Assembly: GCA_031290885.1 (NCBI GenBank)
Contig: JAISLQ010000075.1
Location: 1-41,669, forward strand
Length of the DNA: 41,669 bases
Source: Acidaminococcales bacterium
GTDB taxonomy: Bacteria; Bacillota; Negativicutes; Acidaminococcales; JAISLQ01
Direction: 5' to 3'
The translations under genes were made by a program, and so were the position numbers. The notes beneath the pieces are model-generated. The model was not told the DNA's origin. It saw only the letters and a program-made list of their open reading frames with translations, and ran no database searches. Of this stretch, positions 9,313 through 27,659 are shown one piece after another (position 1 is the stretch's first letter; each line of letters begins with the position of its first letter).

Positions 9313-9661
9313 TGTCCTCATCCTCCTTCTGTGCTTGTCTTATAGCTTCTTCTGCCGCCGCCCAAAGCTCGGCCTCGGCGAGCAGCAAAAGCTGCCCGAA
9401 GCGCTCCTTCGCCGCGCGCATCCGCTGAAACAGCACCAGCGCGGCGGCGCGCTTGCCCTCGCGAAACCCCGCCTCGGCGTCCGCCCTGAAAGTCGTCCTG
9501 TCCCGGAAATTCTCCTGGGCGAAGCGGGCAACGAGCCAGCGCCCCCGCCTGTCCTCCAAGACAAAGGCGAACGCCTCCAAATCTTTTTCCCGCATTTTCG
9601 CTTCGTACCGGGCAACGCCGGCATCCGACATGGCCAGGCGGCGGTTGTCTATCTCGCTCAT
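9299..9661 (-). CDS. Bbp19-like small head protein
   Basis: A 120-aa protein. The core (LEAFAFVLEDRRGRWLVARF, then RTTFRADAEAGFREGKRAAA, then a leucine-rich helix) matches the pattern of the Bbp19 family: a short all-helical protein with a 'one domain of F..VL..  RG..  L' start and a F-x-EG-x-R motif. These proteins are found between portal and scaffold genes in BPP-1-like phages; their role in the head is not defined. Its ATG overlaps the portal stop by four bases. Confidence 0.6.
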   Translation of the reverse strand: MSEIDNRRLAMSDAGVARYEAKMREKDLEAFAFVLEDRRGRWLVARFAQENFRDRTTFRADAEAGFREGKRAAALVLFQRMRAAKERFGQLLLLAEAELWAAAEEAIRQAQKEDEDSGRG

Positions 9662-11430
9662 CCCCCGCCGCCCCCAATCGCGGACATGAGGTTGGCGAGC
9701 GCCGGGTTGCCGCCCTGCCCCAGTTCCATGACGTTCCTCGCCGCGTTGGTGTAGCTCTCCACCGCCGGGGCGGCCTTGGCCTCCCGCTCGGCGGCCGCCT
9801 GCGCCTCGGCCTGTTTGGCCAGCGCCTCAAGCTCCGCCCGGTAAGCGTCCGGGGACTTCAAGAGCTTCGTCTCCACCCCCGTCTTTTCCGCGAACGCCCG
9901 CACGAACGCCTCCGCGTCCAAGAGACGGAACGTCTCCGGCATGAACTGCGCCATGTTGGCCACCATGGAAAGCAAGAGGTTCATATTGTCAATTCCCGAC
10001 ATCTTCTGCGCCTGCGCCAGAGGGCTGGTGTACTCGATGGCGATTTCCGAATCCTGATACGCCCCGTCAAGCTCAAAGGGCGGGAAAGCCCCGTGCCGCT
10101 CCAAAATGGCGTAGGCCCTTTCAATGACCGCGCCCAAAAACTCCGTGTTCAGCCGCTCCGCCACCGGCCCCAGCTGCTGCAGCCGCTCCTGGTTGCGCAG
10201 GCTCAGTTCGTACGCCGTCCGCTGCCCGGAGCGCAACGCCTCCTGATCCAGCATCGTGAAAAGATTCACATTGTAGGCCCGATTTATTTTGTCCCTGACC
10301 CCCTCGCCGATCTCGAAAAGCTCCCTGAACACCGGCGCCAAGGAAAACAGCGTCTCCGCCTTCATGCCCGGCGCGGACTGCGTCGACACCCTGCCCGGCT
10401 CAAAGTCCACCTCCATGCCCGCCGGCACCTGCAGGGGGGGCTTCACGAAAAGCTCCGCGTTCTTGAACGCGTCGTCGATTATCTTGTAGAGCATGCGGGC
10501 GTCCGAATCCGCGTACCAGCCCGGCCCCAAGCCGTAAGCCTGCTGGCCTATCACCTGGTAGCGCGCGATCGCCACCGGGAAATCCCGAAAGCCCGACACC
10601 CGGACGAACTCATTGCCGGACTTGTCCAGCCAATAATAGGACGCCCACTCCTGAAAGCCGCTGCCCAATTTATTAAGATCGTAGTCCGCGTTCTTCTCCA
10701 CCAGCCAGCACACGTCCCAGGACTGCCTGAGGCCGCCGCCGCTTTTCACGACGTTTTGCGCGTTCTCGGGCAAAGAATCCATGCCGAAGCGCTGGCAAAG
10801 CTGGTAGCCCGTCATGCGGCGGCGCACCGCGAAACAATTGGGCAGCCCCGTGTGGTCCACCTCGTAGGCGTAGCAGCCCACCGGGTAGTTCTCGAAACGC
10901 ACCCCCCGGAACGCGTCCTCGAACATCCCCACCGGCGCCTGCCCGAAAGGCAAATCCATGAACGCCCCGTGCGCGGCGTTATAAAAATTGCTCCCGTTCA
11001 GCGCCTTGTTCAGGATGCCCATCCGCGCGTCCAAGTTGGCGCGCGCCGCCCAGTCGCTTTCCAAATCGGCGTCGGCGAACGCCAGGCGGAACCACTCGAT
11101 GCTCTGCGGCGTCGCGTTCGACGCCATGCCGCCGGCAAAGACCAGGCAGGCGCGCCACGCCTCCCCGTCCAGCGCCTCCCGGTCGCGCTTGGTTCCCTGC
11201 CGCCCCTCGTCATGGTCGACGAACTCCCCGGCGAAAGGCAGCTGCTTGTCGCGGATGCGCAGCCACTCCGTCCGGCAGTTTTGGTAAGCCGGGTTGCCGA
11301 ACAGCCAATGGAACCTCTGCGCCACCCGCTCGAAAACGCCCGGACGCGCAGGCGCCCGCTTGAAATCCGCGCCGCCGCCCCCGCCGAGCGCCGACACGCC
11401 CGTGCAACGCACATGTTCTTTTCCCGCCAT
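9658..11430 (-). CDS. Portal protein (podoviral head-tail connector)
   Basis: A 590-aa protein. It shows the features of the T7 gp8-like head-to-tail connecting proteins: an early helix with WLRIRDKQLPF, a conserved region with WFRLAFADADLESDWAARAN and the segment FENYPVGCYAYEVDHTGLPN, a middle stem region (YKIIDDAFKNAELFVKPPLQ) and a helical crown with a Gln/Ala-rich tail. The last 60 residues (AKQAEAQAAAEREAKAAPAV) are coiled and low-complexity. As a dodecamer it forms the DNA entry pore and docks terminase and the tail adaptor. The start follows the stop of the preceding small gene by three bases, so translation is probably coupled; the ribosome site itself is weak. Confidence 0.85.
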   Translation of the reverse strand: MAGKEHVRCTGVSALGGGGGADFKRAPARPGVFERVAQRFHWLFGNPAYQNCRTEWLRIRDKQLPFAGEFVDHDEGRQGTKRDREALDGEAWRACLVFAGGMASNATPQSIEWFRLAFADADLESDWAARANLDARMGILNKALNGSNFYNAAHGAFMDLPFGQAPVGMFEDAFRGVRFENYPVGCYAYEVDHTGLPNCFAVRRRMTGYQLCQRFGMDSLPENAQNVVKSGGGLRQSWDVCWLVEKNADYDLNKLGSGFQEWASYYWLDKSGNEFVRVSGFRDFPVAIARYQVIGQQAYGLGPGWYADSDARMLYKIIDDAFKNAELFVKPPLQVPAGMEVDFEPGRVSTQSAPGMKAETLFSLAPVFRELFEIGEGVRDKINRAYNVNLFTMLDQEALRSGQRTAYELSLRNQERLQQLGPVAERLNTEFLGAVIERAYAILERHGAFPPFELDGAYQDSEIAIEYTSPLAQAQKMSGIDNMNLLLSMVANMAQFMPETFRLLDAEAFVRAFAEKTGVETKLLKSPDAYRAELEALAKQAEAQAAAEREAKAAPAVESYTNAARNVMELGQGGNPALANLMSAIGGGGG

Positions 11431-21416: not shown

Positions 21417-22361
21417 ATGGAAATCAAAGAAATCCTGCGGGAAATCGACAGACAGTATCAAGTGCTGGGACCGGCCGATATGGAAGAATTTTTCAAAAAA
21501 ACCTTGGAATTTTACAAGGACGAGCACGGCCGGGACAGTCCGGGCTACGCTTCCCTGGCCAATGAGTTTGGCGCTTTCTACCGCAACCAGAGCCGCTACG
21601 AGGAAGGCGAGCAGCTTTTTCTGGAAGCCGCGGAAATCCTGGCAAAACTGCAAGGGAAAAACAGCGCGGAATACGCCACCGCCCTGAACAACCTGGCCGA
21701 GCTTTACCGGCTGGCCGGCAACCGGGACAAAGCCGAAGAAATCCTCAACCAGGTTATCGGCATCTTCCGCGAGTCGGTGGGCGAGCGGCATTTCCTCTAC
21801 GCCAGCGCCCTTAACTATTTGGGGCACTTTCGCCATGAGGGCGGCCAAGCCCAGGAAGCATTGGATCTTTATGAAGAATCCCTGAAAATAGTGTCCGAGA
21901 TGCCAGAGAACCACGCCCTTTTGGCCACCGCTTACGGCAACGTGGCCGGTGCGCTGCGTTCCCTGAAACGCTACCCCGAGGCCGTAAAATACTTGGAAGA
22001 CGCCAAAAAGCTGCACGAGGAGAAATTAGGCGCCAACGACCAACATTACAGCGCCGTTTTAAACGGCATCGGATCGCTTTGGCATACCATGGGCGATCTT
22101 GACAAGGCGGCGGAATACTATGACAAGGTAATGCAGCTCTTGCTTCGCCACAACAGCAAAAAAACCCGGGACTACGCCATAGCCGCCGGCAACTACGCCG
22201 CCTGCTGCGAAGCCCGGGGCGAACTGGACAAAGCCGTCCACTACGCCAAGGAAGCCAGGGACTGTTTCGCCGCCGTCTATGGCCCTGACGGCCCCTTCAC
22301 GCCGGGGGCGCGAAAATATCTTGACCATCTGGAAAAAAAAGCCGCCAAAAACAACGCCTGA
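21417..22361 (+). CDS. Tetratricopeptide repeat protein
   Basis: A 314-aa protein started at the ATG (21,417) behind CGGAGGTG. After a short helical N-terminus (residues 1-40), six 42-residue TPR units of the kinesin-light-chain type fill residues about 41-290: each has the pattern Y-A-x-A-L-N-N-L-A-x-L-Y-x-x-x-G followed by a second helix with A-E-x-x-x-x-x-A (for example SAEYATALNNLAELYRLAGN). No signal peptide or catalytic domain. It would act as a cytoplasmic protein-interaction scaffold; the partner is not known. It lies between mfd and the acyl-CoA gene cluster and ends at a strong terminator, so it is its own transcription unit. Confidence 0.82.
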   Translation: MEIKEILREIDRQYQVLGPADMEEFFKKTLEFYKDEHGRDSPGYASLANEFGAFYRNQSRYEEGEQLFLEAAEILAKLQGKNSAEYATALNNLAELYRLAGNRDKAEEILNQVIGIFRESVGERHFLYASALNYLGHFRHEGGQAQEALDLYEESLKIVSEMPENHALLATAYGNVAGALRSLKRYPEAVKYLEDAKKLHEEKLGANDQHYSAVLNGIGSLWHTMGDLDKAAEYYDKVMQLLLRHNSKKTRDYAIAAGNYAACCEARGELDKAVHYAKEARDCFAAVYGPDGPFTPGARKYLDHLEKKAAKNNA

Positions 22362-22514
22362 CAAAACTTCGTTGGCCCGGCCGCGACGTGCCGCCTTCCG
22401 GCTGAAACCATGGCGCGCTGCGTTTAAATTGCCACGATACTTTTGCGGCAAATTAAACGCCAAACTTTTTACCGGCAAAATCATGGACCCTTTTTCAATC
22501 GATCAAAAGAAGGC

Positions 22515-22537
22515 CGCTGCCGCGGAGCGCGGCAGCG
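22515..22537 (+). repeat. GC-rich 10-bp hairpin before the TPR terminator
   Basis: CGCTGCCGCG (22,515-22,524) and CGCGGCAGCG (22,528-22,537) with a 3-base loop, 32 bases before the rho-independent terminator. It may protect the 3' end of the TPR mRNA. Confidence 0.55.
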
Positions 22538-22568
22538 ATTCCCGGCGCGGCGAGGAGATATTGCGGCG

Positions 22569-22603
22569 CAGCCCCTTATTCAGCCAATAAGGGGCTGTTT
22601 TTT
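22569..22603 (+). terminator. Rho-independent terminator of the TPR gene
   Basis: CAGCCCCTTATT (22,569-22,580), loop CAGCC, AATAAGGGGCTG (22,586-22,597), followed by six T residues. A textbook terminator separating mfd/TPR from the acyl-CoA cluster. Confidence 0.92.
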
Positions 22604-22766
22604 GCATGTCGCGCTTTTTCTGGCCCGGCCGGCCCTGCTCATTTTGCTAAACACATCCTTTTTCTATATGCCATCACAAAAAACAGTCAGGATGGCATAT
22701 TGACTGCAAGCTTTGCGGCGAATATAATAAACATAACAAATCAGGTCATAGTGCGGCTCGTACGGC

Positions 22767-22922
22767 AAAGCCAACGCGACACAATTTCAATTGAGTTGAG
22801 TTTTGCCCGGGTAAAAACCTGATTAAATAGCCTTCCCCAAAAATTAATTTTTGGGGAATTTACGGAGCAAAAGAAAAAATCCCCTGACAAGGGGACAATA
22901 GAAAAGCCAACGCGACACAATT
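22767..22922. repeat. 20-bp direct repeat, two copies 136 bases apart
   Basis: AAAGCCAACGCGACACAATT at 22,767-22,786 and again at 22,903-22,922. In the second copy it runs into a perfect palindrome (GCGACACAAT, four bases, ATTGTGTCGC, 22,912-22,935); in the first copy the palindrome is decayed. Possible activator sites or the trace of a small duplication. Confidence 0.75.
22833..22858. promoter_or_regulatory. 26-bp perfect palindrome
   Basis: Half-site TTCCCCAAAAATT followed directly by its complement. It could be a protein-binding site or a hairpin with a stem of up to 11-12 bp. Nearby, TCCCC-N6-GGGGA (22,880-22,895) followed on the minus strand by TTTTTTCTTTT looks like a terminator facing left. 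Confidence 0.6.
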
Positions 22923-23011
22923 GAAATTGTGTCGCACCCGGCGCGGACGCCTGGCGCCAAAAAAATATTTATTTCTCAACCCGGCTTTTCAGTGCCTATC
23001 TTTCCCGTATT

Positions 23012-23046
23012 TGTTTACCAAAGTAAACAGTCCGAAAAAACGGACT
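23012..23046. promoter_or_regulatory. Two adjoining palindromes, candidate activator sites
   Basis: TGTTTAC-CAAA-GTAAACA (23,012-23,029) and AGTCCG-AAAAAA-CGGACT (23,029-23,046), sharing one base. They lie about 280-310 bases upstream of the sigma-54 promoter, within the range at which sigma-54 activators bind. Confidence 0.5.
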
Positions 23047-23321
23047 CGGCCGTCAGCAAAAAAGCGCGTTCCGGCACGTCAGCCATTTTTGCCTGTCAGG
23101 ACGCAAAAGTATACACTCGGCCGCTTGGTATACATGAAATTCCGATGTCCGCTTGCCGCAAGCCTTTCCCCGTTTTGCCGCTGGCCGGCGCGGATATTAC
23201 AAAAGGCCAATCTTGTTTTGCTTCTACTGCGCCAAGTTTACAACTATTTATTCGCAAGCGTCATAAATCCTGTTTTTCCCTGACTTATTGTTTCCGATCG
23301 CGCCGCTGAAAAATTTTTAAA

Positions 23322-23337
23322 TTGGCACAACAATTGC
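23322..23337 (+). promoter_or_regulatory. Sigma-54 promoter of the acyl-CoA gene cluster
   Basis: TTGGCAC-AACAA-TTGC matches the -24/-12 consensus in every conserved base with exact spacing (GG at 23,324-23,325, GC at 23,336-23,337). Start would be near 23,349, giving a leader of about 118 bases that holds the palindrome at 23,419-23,438 and a GGGAGG ribosome site. A sigma-54 activator is encoded 2.9 kb downstream. Confidence 0.88.
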
Positions 23338-23418
23338 ATAATATAATTTGCGGGTTTTTTACGCGAAATTAACCTGCCCATGCGCCTTGCCGCAACGGAC
23401 GCACAAACACGCCCGCAA

Positions 23419-23438
23419 TTATCCAAAAATTTGGATAA
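23419..23438 (+). promoter_or_regulatory. 20-bp palindrome in the 5' leader
   Basis: TTATCCAAA-AA-TTTGGATAA lies between the sigma-54 start and the ribosome site of acyl-CoA dehydrogenase 1. An operator for a repressor or an RNA hairpin near the initiation region. Confidence 0.55.
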
Positions 23439-23466
23439 TAAATAAAAACAAGGGAGGATTTGAAAA

Positions 23467-24594
23467 ATGCAGTTACCGGAAGAAGTAGTAGCTCTACAAA
23501 AAATGGTGAGGGATTTTGTCAATAAGGAGGTCATCCCCAAAGCCGCCGATTACGAAAAAAGAGGCGAGTATCCGAAAGAGTTGGATATGATGGCTTTTGA
23601 CATGGGACTGCCCGTTCTTTGCCTTCCGACACAATACGGCGGCGGCGGCATGAGCGAATTGGCCCTTACCGTAGTCATGGAAGAGTTGGCGCGGGGAGAT
23701 TTGGGGTTTGCCAACTACGTCAGCGCCAGTACGCTCGCGACATTGCCGATATTGATCGCCGGCACGGAAGAACAGAAGAAACAGTGGACCGAGCTGCTGC
23801 TGGAAACCAAATACGCCGCGTTTGCGCTTACCGAACCGGAAGCGGGTTCTGACGCCGCCGGCGCAAAGACCACCGCCACCAAGGACGGGAACGACTATAT
23901 CATCAATGGCCGCAAATGTTTCATCACCAATGGCAGCAACGCCGGCGAATATCTCGTCATGGCCTCCATTGACCGTTCCAAAGGAATAAAAGGCCTCACC
24001 TGTTTCATCGTTGAAAGAAGCCGGCCCGGCATTTCCATCGGCAAAGAAGAAGACAAAATGGGCATACGCAACTCCAACACCGCCGACGTCATCTTCGACA
24101 ACGTCAGGATACCGGCCGCCAACCGAGTAGGAGAGGAAGGCAAGGGGTTCGGCATCATCATGAAAACCCTTGACGCCTCCAGGCCGTCCGTGGGCGCGCA
24201 CGGCGTCGGCGTAGCGCAAAGGGCCCTTGAGGAAGCGATCAAGTACGCAAAACAAAGAATCCAGTTTGGCAAGCCGATCGCGGCGATTCCCGCCGTGCAG
24301 ATAATGGTCGCCGACATGGCCATAAAAATCGAGACGGCGCGCCAGATGATATATCACGCCTGCGACTTGTATGACAGAGGCTTGCCGCATACCATCGAAT
24401 CCTGCATAGCCAAGACCGTTGGCGCGGAAGCGGGCTGGGAGGCTGTTGACTTGGCCTTGCAGATCCACGGCGGCTATGGCTACATGCGCGAATATCCGAT
24501 TGAAAAACTCTACCGGGACGTGCGGATAGTCAAGATTTACGAAGGCACGAACCAAATCCAGCGCGGCATCATCGGCGGCAGCCTGCTCAGATAA
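23467..24594 (+). CDS. Acyl-CoA dehydrogenase 1 (butyryl-CoA type)
   Basis: A 375-aa FAD flavoprotein behind GGGAGG. It has the motif ALTEPEAGSDAAG (residues 120-132) that contacts FAD and substrate, GRKCFITNGS (148-157), the QIHGGYGYMREYP segment and the catalytic base in KIYEGTNQIQRG (E359). Length and motifs match short-chain acyl-CoA dehydrogenases such as butyryl-CoA dehydrogenase (Bcd). It interconverts butyryl-CoA (or a similar acyl-CoA) and the 2-enoyl-CoA with Etf as electron carrier. It is the first gene after the sigma-54 promoter. It is clearly different from dehydrogenases 2 and 3 downstream, and has no Etf genes directly next to it. Exact chain-length preference is not readable. 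Confidence 0.9.
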   Translation: MQLPEEVVALQKMVRDFVNKEVIPKAADYEKRGEYPKELDMMAFDMGLPVLCLPTQYGGGGMSELALTVVMEELARGDLGFANYVSASTLATLPILIAGTEEQKKQWTELLLETKYAAFALTEPEAGSDAAGAKTTATKDGNDYIINGRKCFITNGSNAGEYLVMASIDRSKGIKGLTCFIVERSRPGISIGKEEDKMGIRNSNTADVIFDNVRIPAANRVGEEGKGFGIIMKTLDASRPSVGAHGVGVAQRALEEAIKYAKQRIQFGKPIAAIPAVQIMVADMAIKIETARQMIYHACDLYDRGLPHTIESCIAKTVGAEAGWEAVDLALQIHGGYGYMREYPIEKLYRDVRIVKIYEGTNQIQRGIIGGSLLR

Positions 24595-26246: not shown

Positions 26247-27659
26247 ATGGACGCAAACAATTATTCCAAATTAAGCGAAATATTCAAAAAAACCGAAAGC
26301 AGCCCTGAAGTATCTTTGCCGCTCAGCGTCTTGGGCGCCCTTCAGCCGACAATCATCATCACCGACGCCGCCGGGCGGATCCTTTATATAAACAAACCGC
26401 GCGCGGCAGCGGCGAACATTGGCGCGCCGAAGGCGCAGCGGCCGATGGGGTGTCCTTTTGAGGCGCTGTTTCGGGAGGAGCAGTTCACAAAAATCCTAAA
26501 AGAGCAAAAGCGCGTCGAGGGGCGGCTCTGCCGCCTGAAATCCTTCAATATGGACGCGCTTGTGAATATGTACCCCCTGACGGGCGGCGGCAAAACCGTC
26601 GGTTTTATTGTCAGTTACATAAACATCAATGAATTCAGCAACCTAACCAGCAACGCGGAATATTACAAAGATATTTTCGCGGAAGATACGCAAAGCAGGG
26701 ATCCGTTGCCGGCGCCCTTTCAAAACATCATTGGCAATTGCCGCAAAATGTACGAGGCCAAATATACCGCCGCCAAAATAGCCGGCTCCGACATTACCGT
26801 GCTGCTGACGGGCGAAAGCGGCGTAGGCAAGGAACTTTTCGCCGAGGCCATCCACAATTGCAGCAATCGGCGCAACGGGCCGCTCGTCAAAACAAATTGC
26901 GCCGCGATCCCCGAGCCTTTGCTGGAAAGCGAACTATTTGGCTATGACGGCGGCGCTTTTACCGGCGCGAAAGCGGACGGCAAAAAAGGGAAATTTGAAT
27001 TGGCCGACGGCGGGACGCTCTTCCTGGACGAAATAGGCGACATGGGTATGTCCATGCAAACAAAGTTGCTAAGGGTATTGCAGGAAAAAGAAATAGAACG
27101 CGTCGGCGGCGCGCGGACAAAAAAAATTGACGTGCGGATCGTCGCGGCTACCAATAAAAACATCTGCCAGATGGTCAAAGAGGAAGAATTCCGCGAAGAT
27201 CTTTATTACCGGCTGGCGGTGGTCAGCTTAAAAATACCGCCGCTGCGGGAACGCAAAGAAGACATCTTGCTGTTGGTCGACTATTTCCTGAAAAGGCTTA
27301 ACCTGACCCATAACAAAAACATTGCCTGCACCAAGGATGCCGTTAATATTTTATTGAGCTATTTTTGGCGGGGAAACGTCCGGGAATTGCAAAATGTGTT
27401 GGAACGCGCGTTTGTACTTTGCAGCGGCGAAGTTATCTGCCCGCGCGACCTGCCCGACCCCCTGAACAAATGGGACAAATCCTCGCGGCTGAAAATCAGC
27501 GCCGGGAAAACGCTGGAAACCATCATGGAAGAAACAGAAAAAGAAGTCTTAAAGTCAGTCCTGAAACTGGCCAACAACAACCGTACAAACGCGATGAAAA
27601 TGCTTGGCGTTTCGCGGCGCACCCTTTACAAAAAATTAAACAAATACAATATTGACTAA
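26247..27659 (+). CDS. Sigma-54-dependent transcriptional activator with PAS domain
   Basis: A 470-aa regulator. N-terminal PAS-like sensor (about 25-125; TIIITDAAGRILYINKP), central AAA+ domain with Walker A GESGVGKE (189-196), the sigma-54 contact loop GAFTGA (236-241) and Walker B TLFLDEIGD (257-265), then a Fis-type helix-turn-helix at the C-terminus (about 440-465; NRTNAMKMLGVSRRTLYKKL). There is no phosphoreceiver domain, so it likely senses a small ligand or redox state itself. It lies inside the acyl-CoA cluster, 2.9 kb after a perfect sigma-54 promoter, and is the natural regulator. The motif before GAFTGA reads YDG where most relatives have Y-E-K or similar. Confidence 0.93.
   Translation: MDANNYSKLSEIFKKTESSPEVSLPLSVLGALQPTIIITDAAGRILYINKPRAAAANIGAPKAQRPMGCPFEALFREEQFTKILKEQKRVEGRLCRLKSFNMDALVNMYPLTGGGKTVGFIVSYININEFSNLTSNAEYYKDIFAEDTQSRDPLPAPFQNIIGNCRKMYEAKYTAAKIAGSDITVLLTGESGVGKELFAEAIHNCSNRRNGPLVKTNCAAIPEPLLESELFGYDGGAFTGAKADGKKGKFELADGGTLFLDEIGDMGMSMQTKLLRVLQEKEIERVGGARTKKIDVRIVAATNKNICQMVKEEEFREDLYYRLAVVSLKIPPLRERKEDILLLVDYFLKRLNLTHNKNIACTKDAVNILLSYFWRGNVRELQNVLERAFVLCSGEVICPRDLPDPLNKWDKSSRLKISAGKTLETIMEETEKEVLKSVLKLANNNRTNAMKMLGVSRRTLYKKLNKYNID

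Follow-up and report, generated by a model that had tools for sequence, protein, structure and literature searches.

Why should a stretch of DNA that encodes no gene be so crowded with repeats? The question is raised by positions 22767-23438 of a 41,669-nucleotide window (the whole stretch of DNA analysed here) from an Acidaminococcales bacterium, where an initial annotation had recorded five palindromes, a pair of GTATAC boxes and a direct repeat, and had proposed that several regulators act here or that an RNA or mobile element had gone unrecognised. Overall, we believe the cluster is probably two things side by side: a decayed inversion switch on the left, and the control region of a sigma-54 promoter on the right. 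What was proposed as a set of alternatives is then better taken as a composite, in which the left half is a recombinase unit of mobile-element character and the right half is conserved DNA of the regulator type, with RNA disfavoured.

All of the repeats lie where the annotation had placed them. A 26-bp palindrome at 22833-22858, only loosely kept in the same-genus genome G001, is followed by one at 22912-22935 (11-nt arms, 2-nt centre), by TGTTTACCAAAGTAAACA at 23012-23029 (7-nt arms, 4-nt centre), by AGTCCGAAAAAACGGACT at 23029-23046 (6-nt arms, 6-nt centre) and, at the far right, by ATTATCCAAAAATTTGGATAAT at 23419-23438 (9-nt arms, 2-nt centre, or 22 bp if 23418-23439 is taken). The GTATAC boxes, a candidate regulator site, begin at 23109 and 23128, 19 bases apart, and together span 23109-23133; the direct repeat consists of 20 identical bases at 22767 and 22903 within a 30-nt repeat of 90% identity. 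The five had been called perfect palindromes, a description that holds for 22833-22858, which has no loop, but not for the other four, which have unpaired centres. Likewise, a density above chance was borne out for the long palindromes but not for the short ones, whose count falls within the range of 300 shuffles of the 672-nt region. Seven palindromes with arms of at least 6 nt were seen against a shuffle mean of 2.75 and maximum of 11, and four with arms of at least 7 against a mean of 0.82 and maximum of 4; for arms of at least 9 the figures are three against 0.06 and 2, and for arms of at least 10, two against 0.01 and 1. Judged by these counts at each arm length, the excess over chance is due to the long palindromes. 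That the region is without a gene is in practice correct, since it holds only mechanical open reading frames of 120 and 126 aa and its alignment with G001 is interrupted throughout by gaps of 1 to 11 nt.

The key to the left half sits just to the left of the annotated interval, and was therefore outside its view. On the minus strand at 22432-22642 is rec1, a pseudogene of a small tyrosine recombinase, of which only the N-terminal half is left, interrupted by stop codons and frameshifts. When the gap was used as a query against the genome of the window, another partial copy turned up on the same contig (C75:44480-44691), beside an intact paralogue, rec2 (C75:43856-44482, 247 aa, Phage_integrase E 2e-25), about 21 kb from rec1. 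In a protein search the intact 247-aa rec2 reading matches the minus strand of the window at 22432-22587 and 22589-22738, with internal stops, and a three-frame reading of the rec1 stretch meets stops in each frame. At the nucleotide level, window 22440-22802 is 75% identical, plus/plus, to L005:4279-4657 in the rec2 unit. Six residues are invariant in an alignment of five paralogues, namely R41, K71, H139, R142, H165 and Y174, which we take to be the catalytic residues of tyrosine recombinases. Unlike FimB and FimE, the recombinases here fall far below the curated cut-offs of both NCBIfam "tyrosine-type DNA invertase" (FimB/FimE-like) models, NF007370 and NF007371: rec2 scores 23.2 and 42.6 bits against cut-offs of 221 and 222, and three other recombinases that were scanned are also far under. 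On the 5' side of rec2 is a 48-bp perfect palindrome with 24-nt arms, to which the direct repeat and the 22912-22935 palindrome of the window correspond. It is the one palindrome of the rec2 locus, where its partner is only partial (10 nt, 104 nt further on).

Two further features of this side of the window deserve mention in their own right. Inside rec1, at 22568-22598, there is a hairpin with a T run (-24.7 kcal/mol for a 50-nt stretch), whose counterpart reaches -16.0 kcal/mol in rec2 and only -10.7 in the corresponding G001 rec2 stretch; it may now serve as the terminator of a TPR gene that ends at 22361. The left part of the window also contains phage genes, among them a Phage head-to-tail connecting protein on the minus strand at 9658-11430 (Pfam E 5.8e-103).

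To the right of rec1 the repeats resolve into two crossover-like sites on the plus strand. The recombinase-proximal site 1 (22767-22802) contains the left copy of the direct repeat and an inverted arm at 22776-22802, while the distal site 2 (22903-22938) contains the right copy, the 22912-22935 palindrome and an inverted arm at 22909-22935. The two 27-nt arms are 89% complementary and lie 106 nt apart, and as an inverted pair they exceed 200 of 200 shuffles; the site centres, TTTCAA in site 1 and TTGAAA in site 2, are reverse complements and so stand in opposite orientation. Between the arms is the proposed invertible segment, 22803-22908, with the 26-bp palindrome inside it. The pattern CGACACAATN{2,8}ATTG occurs at three places in the genome, which are the two window sites and rec2 (three forward and two reverse matches, against 0 and 1 for the reversed control). 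Window 22874-22935 aligns with L005:4631-4692 of the rec2 unit plus/minus, at 84% over 62 nt. The symmetry of the palindrome does not explain this opposite-strand match, because 26 of the 62 bases lie outside it and 20 of these 26 are identical. Read from this alignment, the segment is inverted in the window copy relative to the rec2 copy, or vice versa. In G001, the one same-genus relative, the segment has the same orientation as in the window, with no inversion between the orthologues, which fits a fixation before the two species parted.

Is the same geometry found at other recombinase loci? The 350 nt on the 5' side of recombinase genes were searched for inverted pairs with gaps of 60-200 nt, with 200 shuffles per locus, at 110 of 114 loci (four with less than 250 nt of upstream DNA were left out). 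The 110 comprise seven chosen loci, 27 further ones among the matches listed (35 of 380 genomes of the class match) and 76 from a viral collection, taken from the best 80 of 363 relatives. Eight exceed all 200 shuffles: L165, L035, the window, L137, L164, L039, L037 and L148. Seven of these share arms of 20-29 nt and gaps of 106-125 nt, or 118-125 nt for the six loci other than the window; L148 passes with another geometry, 17-nt arms and a gap of 71. The remaining 102 of the 110 homologous loci do not beat all their shuffles, and the inverted pair does not characterise these recombinases in general. L037 and L039 share 82.6% identity, L164 is close to L165, and L137, from another family of the class, resembles the window at site 1 (GACACAATGGAATTGAGT in L137, GACACAATTTCAATTGAGT in the window), so that the seven loci represent four or five arm types. 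In L165 and L137 the arms match along 20-29 nt with the unpaired centre included.

A recombinase tree of 41 rows places rec2, its G001 counterpart, L035, L036, L037, L163, L164, L165 and G046 in a nine-row clade with support of 100/100, and puts L137 outside it on a long branch, in a tree where the placement of long branches is unsure. Membership of the clade does not imply a pair that passes: 19 of 200 shuffles reach the pair score of G046, and rec2 does not pass either. L036, considered as a sister switch, was rejected on the grounds of its weak pair (reached by 4 of 200 shuffles), the absence of an orientation-dependent terminator and, in addition, a relative in G001 that has no recombinase in the 3.5 kb read. 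That relative (L252, G001:C185, approximately 1738-1906 of the reverse complement) is located between dapB-like and asd-like genes, named by eye, and may be a non-autonomous copy or else an RNA leader; elsewhere L252 contains a lysine riboswitch.

The surroundings of these recombinases are varied. In L035 (2900-6260, contig C79) a recombinase and inverted pair precede GrpE-like and Hsp70-like genes, an unusual target for a phase switch; its counterpart was not found in G001, a genome given as 75% complete. The L137 recombinase (G085:C37), with its 20-nt perfect inverted pair, adjoins a gene whose product we presume, by eye, to be like ArdC-type antirestriction proteins. In G046, two tandem cobalamin riboswitches (L160, 1896-2319) lie 5' of a recombinase of the nine-row clade. 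At four contig ends of G000 (L038 2673-2866, L040 1-168, L041 1-119 and L042 1-119) the 3' ends of recombinase genes are 96-100% identical in four different surroundings, and the assembly probably breaks here at copies of a recombinase unit that multiplied recently and may be mobile. Two G001 contigs, C245 at its end and C26 at its start, also break within a recombinase-plus-site unit, as would be expected from near-identical units or mixed orientations.

What, then, might inversion of the segment have controlled? A sigma-70-like promoter, TTGACT-17-TATAAT (11 of 12 positions), is predicted on the plus strand at 22700-22728, pointing to the switch and the operon, and only 0.2% of 1000 shuffles of the stretch from rec1 to site 1 reach a score of 11. 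For the matching stretches elsewhere, against this fraction of 0.002, the shuffle fractions are 0.018 (L036), 0.025 (L039), 0.04 (L037), 0.10 (L035) and 0.24 (rec2), and at L037 and L039 leftward promoter-like matches are as good as rightward ones. On the segment itself, a hairpin with a T run that resembles an intrinsic terminator (22879-22896, minus strand) points left in the present orientation, and the hairpin is kept in G001. We flipped the segment in silico at the window, L035, L036, L037 and L039, with the recombinase set on the left in each case. The window now has predicted leftward terminators only and, when flipped, gains two predicted rightward ones, of -31.1 and -9.8 kcal/mol; in the present orientation none facing right is predicted between 22728 and the start of the operon. 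L035, L039 and L037 now have two, two and one rightward terminator-like hairpins, respectively, at or after site 1, and none facing right when flipped. At the window, L035 and L039 an intrinsic terminator is predicted at the recombinase-proximal junction in one orientation only. The L037 junction hairpin is more stable in the present orientation (-25.0) than when flipped (-16.9), and only the second terminator there was called by the prediction rule, while L036 has the same rightward hairpin in both orientations. No terminator is predicted at L137 despite the shared geometry, and we therefore propose the terminator part for this genus and not for all.

Taken together, these observations make it likely, in our judgement, that the left half is the relic of an invertible terminator switch and that the right half is the sigma-54 control region of an acyl-CoA operon. 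The pseudogene, the inverted site pair, its geometry at six other loci, the opposite-strand match and the conservation in G001 are all read directly from the sequence; from them we infer recombination at the sites, the activity of the terminators and promoter, and the binding of an activator. The general scheme would be as follows. Before its decay, rec1 would have flipped a segment of about 130 bp between the two palindromic sites, with their TTTCAA and TTGAAA cores in opposite orientation. In one orientation a long hairpin would form at the recombinase-proximal junction, with a second intrinsic terminator after it; both would face right, and transcripts from a promoter between rec1 and site 1 would stop. 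In the other, which is the present one, both elements would face left and rightward transcription could pass into the operon. Since rec1 survives only as a truncated pseudogene, its product can no longer flip the window switch; lacking a functional recombinase in cis, the locus is at most a relic and not a self-sufficient inverton. With rec1 broken, the switch would be fixed in the read-through state unless its paralogue acts in trans. We consider it unlikely that rec2, 21 kb away and with a palindrome of nearly the same arms, still flips the window switch, so that the sigma-54-controlled acyl-CoA pathway would be phase-variable, and that the rec2 palindrome could recombine with the window sites so as to delete or invert the whole 21-kb operon.

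The right half has a different character. A -24/-12 promoter for sigma-54, TTGGCACAACAATTGCAT, lies on the plus strand at 23322-23339, with the site TGGCACAACAATTGCA at 23323-23338. The sigma-54 pattern is found twice in the window against 1.38 expected, and with up to one mismatch at five places in the genome against three for the reversed control, figures that are not above chance for the window alone and not clearly so for the genome. Since pattern counts alone are not above chance, support for the promoter comes from its conservation in G001, the only other genome of the genus compared, whose locus L007 starts inside site 1, spans the gap as far as the operon and keeps the promoter apart from a C-to-T change where the -24 element ends. 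The initial annotation had made its proposal depend on conservation in close relatives, and in this one same-genus genome several blocks are kept but AGTCCG...CGGACT is not. GTTTACC-N3-GTAAAC is conserved, as are both GTATAC boxes, at a spacing one base longer, and ATTATCCAAAAATTTGGATAAT is identical together with the 22 bases after it. At the four other sigma-54-like places in the genome, the 500 nt upstream contain neither a GTTTAC palindrome nor a single GTTTAC/GTAAAC or GTATAC box. The GTTTAC palindrome at 23012-23029 is a candidate upstream site for the sigma-54 activator and, by its form, appears the likeliest one; the AGTCCG...CGGACT palindrome (23029-23046) is probably without function. 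The 23418-23439 palindrome, which immediately precedes the ribosome-binding site within the predicted 5' untranslated region, is a candidate operator or leader hairpin; with up to two mismatches allowed, its 18-base core occurs only once in the genome. The operon begins on the plus strand with an acyl-CoA dehydrogenase (23467-24594; the nearest NCBIfam model is acryloyl-CoA reductase AcrC, below its cut-off), and the gene run also encodes a CoA-transferase-type protein, further acyl-CoA dehydrogenases, enoyl-CoA hydratases, electron-transfer flavoproteins and a thiolase. It includes a sigma-54 activator with an AAA+ domain and a Fis-type HTH (26247-27659, plus strand; nearest model PrdR, below its cut-off), the probable activator of the sigma-54 promoter.

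Could the whole cluster instead be a landing pad for regulators, each palindrome binding a repressor or activator of the sigma-54 operon? The right half suits this idea, with its GTTTAC, GTATAC and ATTATCC blocks kept in G001 and the activator gene in the same run, but the left half has its homologue in the 5' flank of a recombinase gene elsewhere, which adjoins a FolC-like gene and has no such operon to its right, and we regard the idea as decidedly unlikely for the cluster as a whole. It is also quite unlikely, in our view, that the left palindromes are duplicated bidirectional terminators and that an inversion system was never present. They do have terminator-like tails, and the rec2 palindrome is located between two genes on the same strand, a FolC-like gene of the Mur ligase family and rec2 itself. 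At odds with this are the recurrence of oppositely oriented site pairs, similarly spaced and with four or five different arm sequences, next to small recombinases, the L165 and L137 arms that match through an unpaired centre for which a terminator has no need, and the part of the unit that is inverted relative to rec2.

A more serious rival, if still a doubtful one, is a mobile element, a recombinase and its palindrome that travel together to new locations, the repeats being the ends of the unit or its attachment sites. Two homologous units do flank about 21 kb of the same contig, and near-identical recombinase 3' ends recur in different surroundings at the four contig ends described above; contig breaks, however, keep both ends from being read, and paired inverted sites suit a switch better than an insertion. 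The two readings can in any case both hold together. An unrecognised small RNA or riboswitch seems to us most improbable. The strong hairpins, and the relative of the L036 element upstream of an asd-like gene in G001, could be cited in its favour, but the whole window contains no Rfam family at gathering scores, the six Rfam matches within 22300-23600 all score below gathering and were treated as chance, and the paired inverted sites are explained otherwise. The invertible terminator switch, joined to a sigma-54 control region, remains the reading we prefer.

Phase switches of this kind are already known. In fimS the invertible segment carries the promoter, and a small catalytic-domain tyrosine recombinase adjoins its inverted repeats. 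The element measures 314 bp and operates with FimB/FimE (PMC9993118). The cwpV switch of Clostridioides difficile, as described in passages of PMC2784873, has imperfect 21-bp repeats with 195 bp between them, a recombinase, RecV, encoded elsewhere, and a demonstrated inversion; its promoter is not part of the invertible DNA, and the OFF transcript is proposed to form an intrinsic terminator at the left-repeat junction. On that description, the window resembles cwpV in its short inverted repeats upstream of a gene, its segment without promoter or open reading frame, the promoter predicted upstream and the junction terminator predicted for the OFF state, and differs in its 27-nt arms 106 nt apart, its adjacent broken recombinase gene, the second terminator on the segment and in being known from sequence alone. 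Passages of PMC7446863 describe the C. difficile flg switch as a 154-bp element with imperfect inverted repeats in an operon leader, where post-initiation, Rho-mediated termination sets ON and OFF; as portrayed there, it shares with the window a segment flanked by inverted repeats ahead of an operon and an output set by termination, in the window a proposed one, whereas the terminators predicted for the window are all intrinsic. In passages of PMC11892184, groups of invertons in a defined gut community are linked to tyrosine-type recombinases, and some enriched motifs are suggested as possible terminators. As in the invertons covered there, a recombinase gene here adjoins short, putatively invertible DNA; the organisms differ, and those passages contain no element from the genus of the window. 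Titles and abstract openings of the open papers searched on invertible terminators, Negativicutes invertons and termite-gut DNA inversion do not describe this family of recombinases and sites.

The repeat cluster can now be replaced by a testable layout: a small recombinase, paired sites about 130-150 bp apart from centre to centre, and a segment able to carry a terminator. The sister units comprise two with a whole recombinase gene within the genus (C79, segment at L035:3676-3843, and C85 of G001), one truncated where its contig stops (C64, segment at L039:390-566) and two from the viral collection. If the terminator reading is true, a switch of the cwpV kind would also stand before metabolic and chaperone-like genes, and not only before those for surface structures.
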